Source of the DNA: an uncultured Bacilli bacterium
GTDB lineage: Bacteria; Bacillota_I; Bacilli_A; RF39; UBA660
Reading direction: 5' to 3'
NCBI GenBank assembly: GCA_944332735.1
Contig: CALVKP010000114.1
Coordinates: 1-35,876, forward strand
DNA: 35,876 nt
The notes beneath the pieces are model-generated. The model was not told the origin of the DNA, did no database searches, and saw only the letters and a program-made list of their open reading frames with translations. Within the stretch, counting starts at the first letter, position 1. Every line of letters begins with the position of its first letter. The translations under genes and the position numbers were made by a program. Positions 2,645 to 9,314 of this stretch are shown here, piece by piece.

Positions 2645-4573
2645 CTATACATCTATCATTTCTGCAAATTTTGCATTTGTTTCAATAAAATTACGACGTG
2701 GTTCTACTTCTTCTCCCATGAGTTGCGAGAATACTTGATCTGCTCGAACCATATCATCTACAGTAATTTGTCTTAATACGCGTTTATGAATATCCATCGT
2801 TGTTTCGTTTAACTCTTCGGCATCCATTTCTCCTAAACCTTTCATACGGGCAATTTCATATTTTGTATTAGGGTTTAAGCTTGCAATATATTCATCTCTT
2901 TCAGCTTCATTTAATACGTATTTAATGGTTTTACCATGCTTAATAACGAACAAAGGTGGTTGAGCTGCATAAACGTGTCCTGCCTCTACAATTGGTCTAA
3001 AAAAGCGGTAAAATAGAGTTAAAAGAAGCACTCGAATATGAGAACCATCAACATCAGCATCAGTCATAATAATAATTTTGTCATATCTAAGTTTTGATAA
3101 ATCAAATTCTTCTCCAATACCAGTTCCAAAAGCAGTAATAATTGTTCTAATTTCTTCATTTCCCAAAGCACGATCTAATCTTGCTTTTTCTACATTTAAA
3201 ATCTTTCCACGTAATGGAAGAATTGCTTGTGTCATACTATCTCTACCTTTAATAGCACTACCCCCAGCAGAATCCCCTTCTACTAAAAATATTTCACATT
3301 CACTTGCATCTTTACTCTTACAATCAGATAATTTTCCCCATGTATTAGTCATATCTAAATCACCTTTACGGCGTGTTAATTCACGTGCTCTTTTTGCTGC
3401 TACTCTAGCTTTAGCTGCAAGCATTGCTTTTTCAACAATTGCTTTTGCTTGATTAGGATTTTCAAGTAAAAATCTTTCTAACCCTTCTCCAAATATACTA
3501 GAAGCAATTTTACGAACTTCAGAATTACCTAATTTTGTTTTAGTTTGACCTTCAAATTGAGGGTCTGGATGTTTACAAGATACAATTAATGTTAATCCTT
3601 CTTTTACATCTTCAGAACTCAAATTATCATCTTTTTCTTTTAATATATTATTTTTTCTAGCATAATTATTTAATACACGGGTTAAAGCCATTCTAACTCC
3701 ATCTTCATGAGTTCCTCCTTCTGGTGTATGAATATTATTTACAAATGAATAAATACTAGCAGAATATCCTGTATTATATTGTAGTGCAACTTCAATGCTA
3801 ATATCATTTTCCACACTACCTATATGAATAATACTTTCATGAATTGGGGTTTTATTTTTATTTAAAAATTTAACATACTCACTTAATCCACCTTCATAAA
3901 CAAATTCTTCACGTTTTTTCTCTGCTTCATTTCTATCATCACATAAAATAATACGAAGTCCTTTATTTAAGAAAGCAAGTTCTCTTACTCTTTCTTTTAA
4001 AATATCATAATCAAAAGAAGTTGTTTCTGTAAAAATCGTAGGATCTGGTTTAAATGTAACTGTTGTACCAGTTCGTTCTATATCACATTCACCAATAACT
4101 TTCAAACGATCAACCGTTTTTCCTCCATTTTCAAAACGAATAAAGTAAATTTTACCATCTTGATAAACTTTTACTTCCACCCAGCTACTTAATGCATTAA
4201 CTACAGAAGCACCAACACCATGAAGACCACCAGAAACTTTATATCCGCCGCCTCCAAACTTACCACCAGCATGTAATACTGTATAAACTGTTTCTACAGT
4301 TGAAATACCGGTTTTTGGGTGAATACCTGTGGGAATGCCACGCCCATCATCTTTTACTGTTACAGACTCATCTTTATTAACAATAATTTCAATATCATCA
4401 CAATATCCAGCTAACGCTTCATCAATCGCATTATCTACAATTTCCCATACCAAATGATGTAAGCCACGAGAACTTGTAGATCCAATATACATACCAGGAC
4501 GTTTTCTAACAGCTTCCAATCCTTCTAATACTTGAATATCAGACGCATTATAATGTTCAATCTTTTCTTCCAT
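2645..4573 (-). CDS. gyrB: DNA gyrase subunit B
   Basis: This is the ATPase subunit of gyrase. The N-terminal GHKL ATPase carries [13 protein letters not shown] (Mg-binding Asn), [11 protein letters not shown] and the glycine-rich lid [15 protein letters not shown]. The TOPRIM domain has [12 protein letters not shown] and the DADVDGSHI metal motif, with [12 protein letters not shown] between them. The C-terminal tail [18 protein letters not shown] is typical. The length of 642 residues is normal for the Gram-positive form without the Enterobacteria insertion. The start ATG is preceded by GAGGTG inside the end of recF, with 3 nt between recF stop and gyrB start, so the two are transcribed and probably translated together. 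Confidence 0.97.
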
Positions 4574-4576
4574 AAT

Positions 4577-5689
4577 TTACACCTCATCTTTACTGACTAA
4601 TTTTCCATCATGAATATGAATTAAAGATGCATTTTCGATTAATTTTGAATCTAATAATTCTAATTCAGTTGTTGTAATAATTGTTTGTGTATTATGATTA
4701 ATATGTTTTAGTAAATTATTTCTCTTATGAAAATCCAATTCACTAAAAACATCATCTAATAATAATATTGGAGTATCTTTCTTATAATCTTGAAATAATT
4801 TAATTTCTGCTAATTTTAAAGCAAGCACAGCCATTCTTTGTTGGCCTTGAGAACCGTAAGATTTTAACAAATTCCCATCTAAAAGAAATTCTAAATCATC
4901 TTTATGTGGACCAACTAACGTAACACCTAGCCTTTTTTCTACTTCTTGATGTTTCTTTAATTTTTCTAACAACTGTATTTGATAGGAAATATCACTTTCT
5001 AAATCAATATTTGTATGATAATTCAAAGAAAATGATTTTAATCCTGATATATCTTCAAATATAACAGGAACATACTGATTTAATTTATCGACAAATTTTT
5101 TCCTCATTCGATAAATTAATTCGGCTTTCATTACAAAATATTGATTCAATATAGATAAATATCCTTCATCTACATATTCGCCTTTAACATATTGTTTTAA
5201 ACAATCATTTCTCATTTTTAGTAATTTATTATAATCGTTTAATACATCTAAATATGTAGAATATAATTGTGATAATTCAAGATTCATAAATCTTCTACGA
5301 AATGATGGACCTGCTTTAATTAAATCTAAATCTTCGGGATAAAAAATAATAAGATTCATATGTGAAATATAATCACTCATTTTTTTTATCTCATTATGAT
5401 TAATCTTTAATAATTTCTTTGTTTTTGAAATTCCTATTTCTAATGTTTCAGTTTGATCTTGAAAAAAAACATTTCCTTTAATATATGCAGCTGATTCATT
5501 CTTTTGAATTAATGTATTATCAATAAAAGATCTATGAGATTTTGTCATTCCTAATACATAAATTGCCTCTAACAAATTTGTTTTTCCCTGAGCATTATTT
5601 CCATAAATAATATTAATGGAGGGTTGAAATGAAATTTGAAAGTCGTTGTAATTACGAAAATGACTCACATAAATATTTTCTAAATACAT
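4577..5689 (-). CDS. recF: DNA replication and repair protein RecF
   Basis: RecF is an SMC-like ATPase that helps load RecA at single-strand gaps. Visible parts are Walker A in YGNNAQGKTNLLEA, the ABC signature SQGQQRMAVLALKLAE and Walker B ILLLDDVFSELD near the C terminus. Two upstream in-frame ATGs exist (5714-5716 and 5699-5701). ATG at 5687-5689 gives the family start MYLENIYVSHFRNY, a 370-residue protein (the Bacillus length) and a GAGGGAGG purine stretch just upstream. It is the first gene of recF-gyrB-gyrA and has its own promoter. The small S4-domain gene rlbA (yaaA), normally between dnaN and recF in Bacilli, is absent here. Confidence 0.95.
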   Translation of the reverse strand: MYLENIYVSHFRNYNDFQISFQPSINIIYGNNAQGKTNLLEAIYVLGMTKSHRSFIDNTLIQKNESAAYIKGNVFFQDQTETLEIGISKTKKLLKINHNEIKKMSDYISHMNLIIFYPEDLDLIKAGPSFRRRFMNLELSQLYSTYLDVLNDYNKLLKMRNDCLKQYVKGEYVDEGYLSILNQYFVMKAELIYRMRKKFVDKLNQYVPVIFEDISGLKSFSLNYHTNIDLESDISYQIQLLEKLKKHQEVEKRLGVTLVGPHKDDLEFLLDGNLLKSYGSQGQQRMAVLALKLAEIKLFQDYKKDTPILLLDDVFSELDFHKRNNLLKHINHNTQTIITTTELELLDSKLIENASLIHIHDGKLVSKDEV

Positions 5690-5764
5690 ATCCTCCCTCA
5701 TTTCTAGAAAAAACACTGTTATTTTGAAATTAGTATATAAAAGGTACTCCTATACACACTTACT

Positions 5765-5773
5765 ATTATACCA
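5765..5773 (-). promoter_or_regulatory. extended -10 promoter for recF-gyrB-gyrA
   Basis: On the minus strand TGGTATAAT (extended TG plus perfect TATAAT) lies 76 nt before the recF start. The -35 region is only T-rich. It sits just after the terminator of the upstream gene, so this operon is separately transcribed. Confidence 0.65.
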
Positions 5774-5793
5774 TAGAAATGACGTAAAAAATA

Positions 5794-5820
5794 AAAAAAC
5801 AAGCAAAATGCTTGTTTTTT
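5794..5820 (-). terminator. comK terminator (symmetrical)
   Basis: aaaaaacaagca pairs with tgcttgtttttt around an aaa loop, with T-runs on both strands. It abuts the stop codon of the comK-family gene and isolates it from recF. Confidence 0.8.
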
Positions 5821-6269
5821 TAAAATATTTTTCGTTTTCTTAAAACTGATTCTAACTTTGTTGCTCTTAAAATTTGATTTTCCAACGAACCATATGAAAT
5901 ATCTAATTCAATATTTTTTCCGCAGTGAAAATATAATATTGATTTTTCCTCACAACGAATATGATTCTTAACATGATTTAAAGCTATCCAAGCACATTTA
6001 GGAAATCTTGGTGAAGCTGTTGGAAAAAAAATAATAGATTGAGTTTCTTCAATAATAATTGGTGCTTTATAATTAATACCTGTCAGATGTTTTGTTCCTT
6101 CATGTCTACCTAGATAAGAACTGCCAAAAGAACGACAACTATAATCAATAATTTGACTTGGAGTTTGATTTACCAAAAAACTATCTTGTTTCTCAATAAC
6201 TTTTGTTACGTTTGTTCCTACTGGTAGCAAAGCCAATGTATTTGAATTTACTTCATATTCATTTATCAT
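5820..6269 (-). CDS. comK: ComK-family competence transcription factor
   Basis: ComK is the master activator of DNA-uptake genes in Bacillus and relatives and binds paired AT-boxes. The 149-residue product follows the family from end to end of the conserved part: NEYEVNSNTLALLP (3-16), KVIEKQDSFLVNQTPSQIID (23-42), SCRSFGSSYLGRHEGT (44-59), FFPTASPRFPKCAWI (81-95), HV at 99-100 and ELDISYGSLENQILR (121-135). It ends soon after this and lacks about 40 C-terminal residues of Bacillus ComK (192 aa), a part involved there in degradation control and assembly. Start ATG at 6267-6269 has GGAGGTG six bases upstream; longer in-frame readings lack a site. The gene is monocistronic between two terminators. 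Confidence 0.88.
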   Translation of the reverse strand: MINEYEVNSNTLALLPVGTNVTKVIEKQDSFLVNQTPSQIIDYSCRSFGSSYLGRHEGTKHLTGINYKAPIIIEETQSIIFFPTASPRFPKCAWIALNHVKNHIRCEEKSILYFHCGKNIELDISYGSLENQILRATKLESVLRKRKIF

Positions 6270-6294
6270 TTTTTCACCTCCTCTATTAATAATG

Positions 6295-6313
6295 TTCGAC
6301 AAAATAAGTCGAA
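6295..6313. promoter_or_regulatory. Spo0A-box palindrome upstream of comK
   Basis: TTCGAC and GTCGAA flank a 7-base AT centre. The left arm, read on the minus strand, is TTTTGTCGAACA, containing the perfect 0A-box heptamer TGTCGAA (6295-6301). The right arm has AGTCGAA (one mismatch, 6307-6313). It lies 25-45 nt upstream of the comK start, in its promoter or leader. A hairpin in the leader RNA is an alternative reading. Confidence 0.5.
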
Positions 6314-6347
6314 TGTCCTTTACTTTATCAAAAAAAAGTGAAAAAAA

Positions 6348-6365
6348 TGTCATTTTTTGTCGACA
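6348..6365 (+). promoter_or_regulatory. degenerate tandem Spo0A-like boxes upstream of comK
   Basis: TGTCATT at 6348 and TGTCGAC at 6358 are spaced exactly 10 bp, the spacing of tandem 0A boxes. They match the TGTCGAA heptamer 5/7 and 6/7. The overlapping AAAATGTCATTTT (6344-6356) also fits a single ComK AT-box (AAAA-N5-TTTT). Both motifs are weak in such AT-rich DNA. Confidence 0.3.
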
Positions 6366-6370
6366 CTAAA

Positions 6371-6393
6371 AAAAAAAGAACAAAATGTTCTTT
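6371..6393 (-). terminator. dnaN terminator
   Basis: Minus-strand AAAGAACA pairs with TGTTCTTT around a 3-base loop and is followed by a run of T. The stem overlaps the dnaN stop codon. Confidence 0.75.
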
Positions 6394-7513
6394 AATATGT
6401 ACGAATCGGTAAAATTAGTTGTATTAGATTATCACTCTCAGGATTTTTAAGAATAATTGGCTTAATCTCCCCATTAAATAATAATTCTACTTCTTCACTT
6501 TCAAATGATTTTAAAGCATCCATCATATATTTACTACTAAATGCAATTTTTATTTCTTTATCATTGTTTTTTTGCACACTCAATTTTTCTTCTACATTCC
6601 CAATTTCTGGAATATTAGATGACACAATAATTTCTGTTCCTTTACTCTGTAATTTGATTGTATTTTTATCTGCTTCATTTGTTAATAAAGACGCACGATC
6701 GATAGAATTAAAGAAATCTCTGTAATTAACACGCATCGTCAATTCAAAGTCTGTAGGAATTAATTTTGATGTATTTGGATATGTTCCATTAATTAAACGA
6801 GACATCATTATAATAGAATTAAATTTAAATATAACTTTATTATTAAATACATGCATTTCTAATTGTTCATCTTCATCATTAAATAAACGAATTAATTCAT
6901 TTAAATTTTTTGTAGGAATAACAATATCTGTCGCATCTTGTAATAAACTTTGAATCTCAACAGTTTTTTTAGCTAAACGATATGAATCAGTTGCTGTACA
7001 TTCTAATAAATTTCCTTCAAAATGGAAATTAATACCTGTTAAAATAGGTCTAGATTCTTGTGTAGAAGTAGCAAATGAAGTTTGTGTAATAATGTTTTTA
7101 AATAATTTTTGAGAAATATAAACTGGTGTTTTACTATCTTCTAATTCTAAATTAGGAAATTCTGATACATTATTACAATTCAAATGAAACGAAGAATTTT
7201 GTGTATAAATATAAAGTTTAGAATCAACAACTTCTTCTATATTAATTAATTCATTAGGTAATTTTCTAATAATTTCGTATATATATCTACCAGATACAAC
7301 TATTTCTCCTGTAGTATCAATATTATCAATATCTTTTTTATCAATAAAAGTTTTAATAGCTACTTCATTATCAGTACTCATTAAATAAAGTCCCTCATTT
7401 GTTAATTCAAATTTAATACAATTTAATATTGGTATTAAATTTTTATTAGATATACCCCTAATTACATAATTTAAATGTTCCATTAATTTGTTTTGTTTAA
7501 TTGTCAATTTCAT
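6392..7513 (-). CDS. dnaN: DNA polymerase III beta subunit (sliding clamp)
   Basis: DnaN is the ring-shaped dimer that tethers polymerase III to DNA. The 373-residue protein has the three repeated clamp folds: MKLTIKQNKLMEHLNYVIRG at the start, the middle-domain signature RPILTGINFHFEGNLLECTATDSYRLAKK, and the C-terminal hydrophobic-pocket tail IQLILPIRTY. AAGGT lies nine bases before the ATG. It sits 151 nt downstream of dnaA in the canonical order. It has its own promoter containing a DnaA box and ends in a hairpin terminator. Confidence 0.97.
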   Translation of the reverse strand: MKLTIKQNKLMEHLNYVIRGISNKNLIPILNCIKFELTNEGLYLMSTDNEVAIKTFIDKKDIDNIDTTGEIVVSGRYIYEIIRKLPNELINIEEVVDSKLYIYTQNSSFHLNCNNVSEFPNLELEDSKTPVYISQKLFKNIITQTSFATSTQESRPILTGINFHFEGNLLECTATDSYRLAKKTVEIQSLLQDATDIVIPTKNLNELIRLFNDEDEQLEMHVFNNKVIFKFNSIIMMSRLINGTYPNTSKLIPTDFELTMRVNYRDFFNSIDRASLLTNEADKNTIKLQSKGTEIIVSSNIPEIGNVEEKLSVQKNNDKEIKIAFSSKYMMDALKSFESEEVELLFNGEIKPIILKNPESDNLIQLILPIRTY

Positions 7514-7664: not shown

Positions 7665-9017
7665 TTATTTGATTTGAGTAATAATTTTTTGTATTTCCAT
7701 CTCTAAAATTGGGTTTTTTTTCATTTCATTTTTAATTTTTTCCACTGAATGCATTACGGTAGTATGATCTTTTCCACCAAATTCGATTCCTATCTTAGGT
7801 AGAGATTCTTCTAATACTGTTCTGCATATATACATAGCAATTTGACGTGGAACTGCAATTGCAGCTATTCTTTTTTTACTTTTTAAATCTTCCACTGTAA
7901 TATTATAATTACTCGCAACTAGCTGTTGTACTTGATCTATTTTGTTTTTTGCAACAACACTTTTTGCAAAATAATCTTTTAACGCTTCAATTGCTAAATC
8001 TAATGTAATATCTGATCCATTCATCATTGTTGCGTAAGCTACCACACGCGTAATAGCACCTTCTAATTTTCGAATATCACTTGTACAATTACTAGCTATG
8101 TATTCTTTTACTTCTTTAGGAAAAGCATTGGACATAACCTGACCTTCTAATTTTTTATCAATAATATCCATTCTTAATTTAAAATCAGGTGGCAAAATAT
8201 CTATTGTAAGCCCCCAGTTAAATCTTGTACGTAATCTATCTTCTAATAATTTTAAATCATCCGGTGAGCGATCAGAAGAAATAATAATTTGTTTATTATT
8301 ACCATATAAATCATTAAAAGTGTTGAAAAATTCTTGTTGTGTTTGATTAGCATTTCCTAAATATTGAATATCATCAATCATTAATACATCAATATCACGA
8401 TATTTTCTTTTAAAGATATCAACGCTATCGAAATTATTTCCGTCTTTATTCTTTTTATTAATTCCAATAAAATCAGAGACAAATTTTTCACTTGTTACAT
8501 ATAAAACTCTTTTTTTACTATTTTTAATAATATAATTTCCAATTGCATGCATCAAATGTGTTTTACCTAAACCACTATTTCCATATATAAATAAAGGATT
8601 ATACATAAATCCAGGTTTTTCTGCAACAGCAAGAGAAGTTGCTTTAGCAAATTTATTACTTGATCCAACAATGAAGTTATCAAATGTATATAAAGGATTT
8701 AAATTTGTTTCATATTCATTAATAGAAGGAACTCCAACATTATCTGTATTTATTTCAATATTTTTCTCTATTTCTTCATTTGTTACATATTCAAATTGAA
8801 AATTAGTTCCCGTAATTTCTGCAAAAGTTTCTTGAATTAAGTCATTATAATTTTCTTTTAAATGTTTTTTATGAACATGCATTGGAACTAATACAGTAGC
8901 GTGATTTTCTTTTAGTTCAATTAACTCTGTTTCCATAAACCATGTTTCAAAAAGCATCGGTGATATATTTTCTTTCATTTTCTCTAAAAAAGTTTTCCAC
9001 AATGTTTTGTTATCCAT
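7665..9017 (-). CDS. dnaA: chromosomal replication initiator DnaA
   Basis: DnaA is an AAA+ ATPase that binds DnaA boxes and melts the origin. Domain I (LWKTFLEKMKENISPMLFETW) is at the N terminus. Domain III has Walker A GNSGLGKTHLMHAIGNY and Walker B VLMIDDIQYL, plus sensor and arginine-finger segments. Domain IV carries the DNA-binding signature GGKDHTTVMHSVEKIK. The linker (domain II) is short. Length is 450 residues. An upstream in-frame ATG at 9042-9044 lacks a ribosome site; ATG at 9015-9017 follows GAGGTGG, ten bases away, and gives MDNKTLW. No clean sigma-A promoter was recognised upstream, where DnaA boxes start. Confidence 0.97.
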   Translation of the reverse strand: MDNKTLWKTFLEKMKENISPMLFETWFMETELIELKENHATVLVPMHVHKKHLKENYNDLIQETFAEITGTNFQFEYVTNEEIEKNIEINTDNVGVPSINEYETNLNPLYTFDNFIVGSSNKFAKATSLAVAEKPGFMYNPLFIYGNSGLGKTHLMHAIGNYIIKNSKKRVLYVTSEKFVSDFIGINKKNKDGNNFDSVDIFKRKYRDIDVLMIDDIQYLGNANQTQQEFFNTFNDLYGNNKQIIISSDRSPDDLKLLEDRLRTRFNWGLTIDILPPDFKLRMDIIDKKLEGQVMSNAFPKEVKEYIASNCTSDIRKLEGAITRVVAYATMMNGSDITLDLAIEALKDYFAKSVVAKNKIDQVQQLVASNYNITVEDLKSKKRIAAIAVPRQIAMYICRTVLEESLPKIGIEFGGKDHTTVMHSVEKIKNEMKKNPILEMEIQKIITQIK

Positions 9018-9169
9018 AGAAAAAATACCACCTCGATTTCTCATTAACTACCAATATTCTACATTATTTTTAATGAAAATACTAGTAAAATCAATAAAAA
9101 ATGTGGAAAAACAGAAACACACATACTTTTCCACACATTAAAATAATAAAAAACAATAAAAAAACATAG

Positions 9170-9297: not shown

Positions 9298-9314
9298 AAT
9301 CGAATTTTGTCGAA
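9298..9314 (+). promoter_or_regulatory. tandem Spo0A-like boxes in oriC
   Basis: AATCGAA (9298) and TGTCGAA (9308) start 10 bp apart, with the direct repeat TCGAAT at 9300 and 9310. The downstream box is the exact 0A-box heptamer in the context TTTTGTCGAATA. Head-to-tail boxes 10 bp apart are the known arrangement for Spo0A dimers at abrB. The site lies between DnaA boxes. Confidence 0.45.

Follow-up and report, generated by a model that had tools for sequence, protein, structure and literature searches.

Predicted Spo0A control of a short, origin-linked comK gene in an uncultured family of Bacilli

In an uncultured lineage of small-genome Bacilli the competence regulator gene comK lies between dnaN and recF, and the DNA ahead of it carries exact Spo0A boxes at a frequency that lends strong sequence support to a predicted control of comK by Spo0A. 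This is the main point of the analysis, and it was missed by the first-pass annotation of the window, by which we mean the whole 35,876 nucleotide stretch analysed (contig CALVKP010000114.1). The family carrying the origin-linked comK probably corresponds to GTDB order RF39, and on balance we favor the view that it possesses a working Spo0A-driven, MecA-free ComK switch alongside its sporulation genes.

Spo0A boxes ahead of comK

The repeat TTCGACA was first seen on reading the comK upstream regions and was taken as the Spo0A box, the core of which is TGTCGAA (PMC3485338). Among all 7-mers of 39 non-redundant comK upstream regions TTCGACA/TGTCGAA ranks at the top, occurring in 19 regions against 0.42 expected, and thereby outranks the Shine-Dalgarno sequence. 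The first set of 49 distinct upstream regions holds 36 exact boxes, as compared to 0.7 in shuffled sequences (maximum 4 in 200 shuffles), and 23 of the 49 have no exact box. A hold-out set, composed of regions from genomes unused for motif discovery and cleared of those similar to the first set, comprises 34 non-redundant regions, of which 23 contain exact boxes, 28 in all, where shuffles give 0.34 and at most 2. The comK upstream regions are related by descent, and the shuffle figures therefore overstate independence, an effect lessened, though not abolished, by thinning and by the hold-out. As for the control intervals, exact boxes are found in none of those between comK and recF (0/34 and 0/35) and in few of those between dnaA and dnaN (3/29 and 2/25).

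The boxes are furthermore arranged in a recurrent manner, often occurring in pairs at a distance of 10 or 20 bp and closely preceding a -10-like element; the 20 bp spacing is seen in 12 of the 39 regions, and the pair GACA-11-TATA, in which the box lies 11 bp ahead of TATA, in 11 of the 39 against 0.07 expected. In the window an exact box TTCGACA (6295-6301, plus strand) forms one half of the inverted repeat TTCGACAAAATAAGTCGAA, the other half of which (6307-6313) has one mismatch, while a near-consensus box TGTCGAC, likewise with one mismatch, is found at 6358-6364 (plus strand) with a degenerate TGTCATT ten bases off at 6348-6354. At the position matching the 6358-6364 box a sister species (G001) has TTCGACA-AAA-TTCGACA. 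An extended -10-like element TGATAAAGT is located at 6322-6330 on the minus strand. In the window's own species the sole exact comK box is thus the one near the start codon, the tandem register being degenerate, and since the 3 exact TTCGACA in the window equal the chance level (3.02 expected), the case for Spo0A boxes rests on the family comparison.

If TTCGACA is read as a Spo0A box, the family is predicted to possess Spo0A, and this was then found, the Spo0A_C domain being above cut-off in 34 of 37 family genomes; SpoIVA is likewise present in 34 of 37. The Spo0A of the window's own genome scores 268.4 bits with TIGR02875 (cut-off 200), has both receiver and C-terminal domains, and its recognition helix is identical to that of 1lq1 over SRVERAIRHAIEV. 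RF39 has been predicted to be spore-forming in PMC10868615, in which neither ComK nor competence is mentioned. In a genome-wide scan, pairs of exact boxes with 3-14 bp between them occur in 27 of 60 genomes. Within the family such pairs are found before spo0A (L194, L216), before comK (L196, L208) and in other places, some of them intragenic, and one further pair (L215) belongs to the spo0A of another family. Paired exact boxes also lie about 33-42 bp ahead of a membrane histidine kinase of about 410 aa, in the own genome (L209:1559-2797 on G000:C4; 42 bp) as well as in L202, L203, L211-L213 and others, and this protein is likely a phosphorelay kinase under predicted Spo0A feedback. The family accordingly resembles the Spo0A regulon of spore formers in the TGTCGAA box, in its occurrence before spo0A and a histidine kinase and in the DNA-recognition helix, but differs in having an origin-sited comK as a regular target family-wide. 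As in B. subtilis, Spo0A boxes are found in the promoter region of a gene encoding a ComK domain protein; the B. subtilis comK promoter, however, has five putative Spo0A sites with up to 2 of 7 mismatches each (PMC3297582), whereas the boxes of the family are exact consensus and often paired.

Some further signals near comK and the origin were considered. A weak Spo0A-like box TTCGACA lies in the dnaA-rpmH (oriC) interval at 9308-9314 (minus strand), and 7 exact boxes were counted in 6 of 26 such intervals as compared to 1.2 in shuffles (maximum 7), mostly in the window's genus; boxes at oriC are not claimed. A candidate sigma-H type promoter AGGACAT-N12-GTCGAACAT (6292-6319, minus strand) is a lead only, the family mean score of 18.26 lying close to that of shuffles (mean 17.72, maximum 18.23 in 50), with good matches in some genera. 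A SigH-like sigma factor gene (G000:C99:2580-3176; L247:2063-2746) adjoins an rlmB-like methyltransferase gene, and its product is below every SigH cut-off. Inverted repeats in many upstream regions hint at an RNA hairpin between the -10 element and the Shine-Dalgarno sequence; this was dropped for the window, where the segment is no more stably folded than its shuffles (z -0.54).

The comK gene and its place between dnaN and recF

The comK gene of the window (5820-6269, minus strand, ATG at 6269) encodes 149 aa, and its assignment as a clear ComK homologue by the first-pass annotation is borne out by a Pfam match to PF06338 of 162.4 bits (cut-off 22.3, E 8.2e-48) spanning positions 2-150 of the 152 in the profile. 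The mechanical open reading frame is 177 aa and starts at an ATG further upstream, but the 149-aa start is preferred since it is backed by the Shine-Dalgarno sequence GGAGGTG (6275-6281, minus strand), a motif also enriched across the family, and by the family alignment (alignment A1). ComK is present in a single copy in the own genome (1.04 Mb, 126 contigs, 77% complete). The gene order there is dnaA-dnaN-comK-recF-gyrB-gyrA, where dnaA (7665-9044), dnaN (6392-7513) and recF (4577-5716) are all on the minus strand like comK. The suggestion that comK is isolated by terminators is well supported downstream only, where a strong terminator of 14 pairs is found (5792-5822, minus strand; -14.0 kcal/mol, z -5.4), since the terminator-like hairpin downstream of dnaN (6376-6393, minus strand) is weak (-5.6 kcal/mol, z -1.2).

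Far from being confined to this one genome, ComK is found in 68 of 71 distinct family genomes, a figure that combines two sets (36/37 and 41/43, with 9 shared). The first of these, which includes the own genome, belongs to a genome collection in which ComK also occurs in 8 of the 23 genomes from elsewhere in the class, and the second to a wider draw of 296 genomes of the class, 131 of which have a ComK match. Conservation of the gene between dnaN and recF in the lineage, which the first-pass annotation had proposed to check, holds for 60 of the 68 ComK-bearing family genomes, in which both neighbors lie within 500 bp of comK on the same strand. In another six (L039, L046, L049, L186, L259, L261) one side of comK is contig-cut, stretched or missing, and in two (G029 = L242 and G008 = L243) comK is located away from dnaN-recF. 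Counted by loci the arrangement is seen in 83 of 91, which includes 23 named records that partly repeat the same species. Outside the family neither dnaN nor recF is found near ComK in any of 20 loci from other families of the class, judged on stretches of 4.6-11 kb; tblastn with the window ComK recovered the gene in 11 of these 20, the remainder being profile matches alone. In the limited collection of PMC literature searched there are no reports of the dnaN-comK-recF arrangement.

The notion that comK takes the place of rlbA (yaaA) likewise holds up, since full-length RlbA (PF13275) is found in none of 37 family genomes whereas it is present in 20 of 23 class relatives (E <= 1e-15). Weak partial PF13275 matches occur in 18 of the 37, within longer frames of 209-421 aa. 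Probably comK was fixed in the rlbA place before the family diversified.

A short ComK, no MecA, and the DNA-uptake genes

The first-pass annotation had described ComK as C-terminally shortened with loss of the MecA-linked region, and the degron region is indeed absent, but the shortness is not local to the window. All but one of the 91 family loci encode a ComK of 142-158 aa, the remaining copy being interrupted at 106 aa, and in the rest of the class the matches lie mostly in open frames of 128-202 aa with two longer ones of 244 and 286 aa. Alignment A1 has 30 invariant columns in 19 ComK sequences with identity down to 43%. In B. subtilis the MecA degron sits at the ComK C terminus (PMC8138137), and the family proteins end upstream of that position, at residue 149 in the window. 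A mecA gene, which the first-pass annotation suggested looking for, was found in none of 60 genomes, 37 of them from the family, while the positive control matched in B. subtilis and L. lactis. The ComK tail and the MecA adaptor are thus absent together, and we read this as control of competence that would be exerted by Spo0A-dependent transcription instead of MecA proteolysis. A shortened ComK C terminus without the conserved MecA site is known from Bacillus coagulans (PMC3536758), but there merely 11 C-terminal residues are lost and MecA is present. B. subtilis ComK deprived of 25-35 C-terminal residues fails to induce comG (PMC3536758), which counts against a working switch here since the family proteins lack this part too; either the short ComK has another mode of action, or it is in Bacillales alone that the tail is required. 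Phage and plasmid searches gave only ComK copies from records of Listeria, Staphylococcus, Priestia and Planococcus, and the two of these that were examined, one a plasmid copy of 159 aa and the other a fragment ended by the edge of its record, provided no tail-bearing reference.

The AlphaFold model of the window ComK, made with alignment A1, has a pLDDT of 91.0 and a pTM of 0.87, and a Foldseek search with it placed LytTR domains first, weakly, at E 8.8e-3. In a second structural comparison six LytTR chains come out at Z 7.0-8.0 over 88-103 residues, with ComE of S. pneumoniae first and a B. cereus protein and AgrA among the others, and the next unrelated row has Z 5.0. The likeness is nonetheless to be regarded as a lead, because models of this kind may commonly reach Z values of 7-8, and sequence searches gave neither a match to LytTR in Pfam nor one to any chain of a solved structure. 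Although the predicted fold of the window ComK may resemble the LytTR domain of ComE and AgrA, the protein has no receiver domain.

Late competence genes, on which the first-pass annotation made its reading depend, do exist in the family, where pilB, pilC, pilD, comEA and comEC are found; a PilB-type ATPase of at least 300 bits is present in 34 of 37 genomes and ComEC in 32 of 37. In a member of the window's genus (L095) comEA-comEC, dnaG-rpoD, pilC-pilD, pilB and prepilin-like genes lie inside 14 kb, and the own genome has pilB, pilC and pilD (L094), while ComEC was not found in this 77% complete assembly, in which the L094 contig ends about 0.8 kb beyond dnaG. The family PilB-type ATPase is mostly 430-500 aa as against about 325-370 aa for the ComGA type, as in class relatives. 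In most family genomes PF00437 matches of about 200 bits and 440-460 aa furthermore point to a second secretion ATPase beside PilB, possibly of a Tad-type pilus, a guess from size and profile range. The pilin operon of L095 also encodes (4440-6047) a prepilin-like protein with Ig-like and glycine-rich ALK/LTK-type domains (PF12810, E 2.3e-40), a candidate for an unusual pilus tip or adhesin.

By analogy with B. subtilis, ComK may activate these uptake genes, but the step is without motif support, since the late-gene promoters show no enrichment of K-boxes (0/32 pilB and 0/12 comEA upstream regions), in which they differ from the B. subtilis ComK regulon; at comK itself K-boxes are weakly enriched (6 of 39 regions, shuffles 1.5, sd 1.2). 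As to other elements at these promoters, a palindrome TAGNATWWATNCTA considered for pilB fitted merely 3 of 32 regions and was rejected. Between pilB and the divergent pilin operon (L095:6597-6658) the common palindromic TATTATATAATA constitutes overlapping -10-like elements on both strands, and in many genera it is followed by a AGGATAAATnCTAGTC-like block.

A predicted switch, its rivals and its meaning

In the mechanism that we tend to favor, Spo0A~P, supplied by the box-preceded membrane histidine kinase, would turn comK on, and boxes close to the comK start codon would perhaps turn it off again; in B. subtilis Spo0A~P both activates and represses the comK promoter (PMC3297582). The decision on comK would thus be made by transcription and phosphorelay instead of ComS/MecA/ClpCP proteolysis, upon which ComK would boost the type IV pilus (PilB, PilC, PilD and prepilins) and the ComEA/ComEC uptake machine, while the position near oriC would give comK top copy number during replication. 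A more far-reaching version seems unlikely in its entirety: that the family has rebuilt the competence switch, with MecA and degron control gone, Spo0A boxes driving ComK, the origin cluster joining copy number with Spo0A, uptake proceeding without DprA, and ComK acting as a stand-alone LytTR-fold activator.

With regard to the boxes themselves, it might be argued from the vicinity of dnaA that they belong to another regulator such as DnaA, whose box TTxTCCACA differs by one base from Spo0A-type boxes, and one-mismatch matches indeed abound in the dnaA-dnaN intervals (33 against 5.2 in shuffles), where they are probably TTCCACA. The exact boxes, however, are rare in those intervals and common before comK, and the same box pairs precede spo0A and the histidine kinase away from the origin, which makes this a very unlikely explanation. 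Even less credible is the idea that comK is a decaying leftover devoid of function; the protein is short, one family genome (G237) has an interrupted copy and in 3 of 71 none was found, but the invariant columns of the alignment, the open frames in nearly all genomes and the conserved promoter boxes all speak against decay.

The significance of the origin position is a different matter. We are evenly divided as to whether it is a neutral remnant left by a single insertion event, unlinked to replication and occupied by an ordinary Spo0A-responsive gene, as may be suggested by the separate upstream region and the strong terminator of the gene, by its location elsewhere in two family genomes and by the lack of neighboring dnaN or recF at all 20 loci outside the family. 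The retention of the arrangement across many genera argues against this, yet conservation extends to the entire dnaA-gyrB cluster, which would freeze any insert. What the uptake machine is for may also be questioned. Only one of the 37 family genomes, G019, has DprA, which there accompanies ComK; the lack of DprA in the other 36 is a further difference from B. subtilis, and for this reason ordinary transformation is not assured. Among the 23 class relatives the two proteins furthermore exclude each other, ComK alone being found in 8, DprA alone in 13, neither in 2 and both in none; these counts are uncorrected for shared ancestry, and taken by family the first two become 6 and 7. With genomes of about 1 Mb, the ComK programme could then serve feeding, attachment or repair, DNA being taken as nucleotides and left unrecombined. 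ComEC and ComEA are retained, however, and a RecA loader other than DprA could substitute, so that we regard this purpose as possible but the less probable one.

The Spo0A-driven, MecA-free switch that we prefer places the link between ComK and Spo0A in an uncultured small-genome gut lineage near the mycoplasmas. The mutual exclusion of ComK and DprA in class relatives raises the question of why it exists, and if the structural lead is true, a LytTR-fold ComK would unite the Bacillus ComK and Streptococcus ComE regulators in one fold. The family furthermore constitutes a natural case in which to ask whether a cellular decision is tied to replication through a regulator gene near the origin. 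Two layers of competence control that are difficult to tease apart in B. subtilis come separated here, in that gating by Spo0A appears kept and sharpened while MecA proteolysis is absent, and the boxes suggest that in this uncultured family DNA uptake and sporulation are governed by one control protein.
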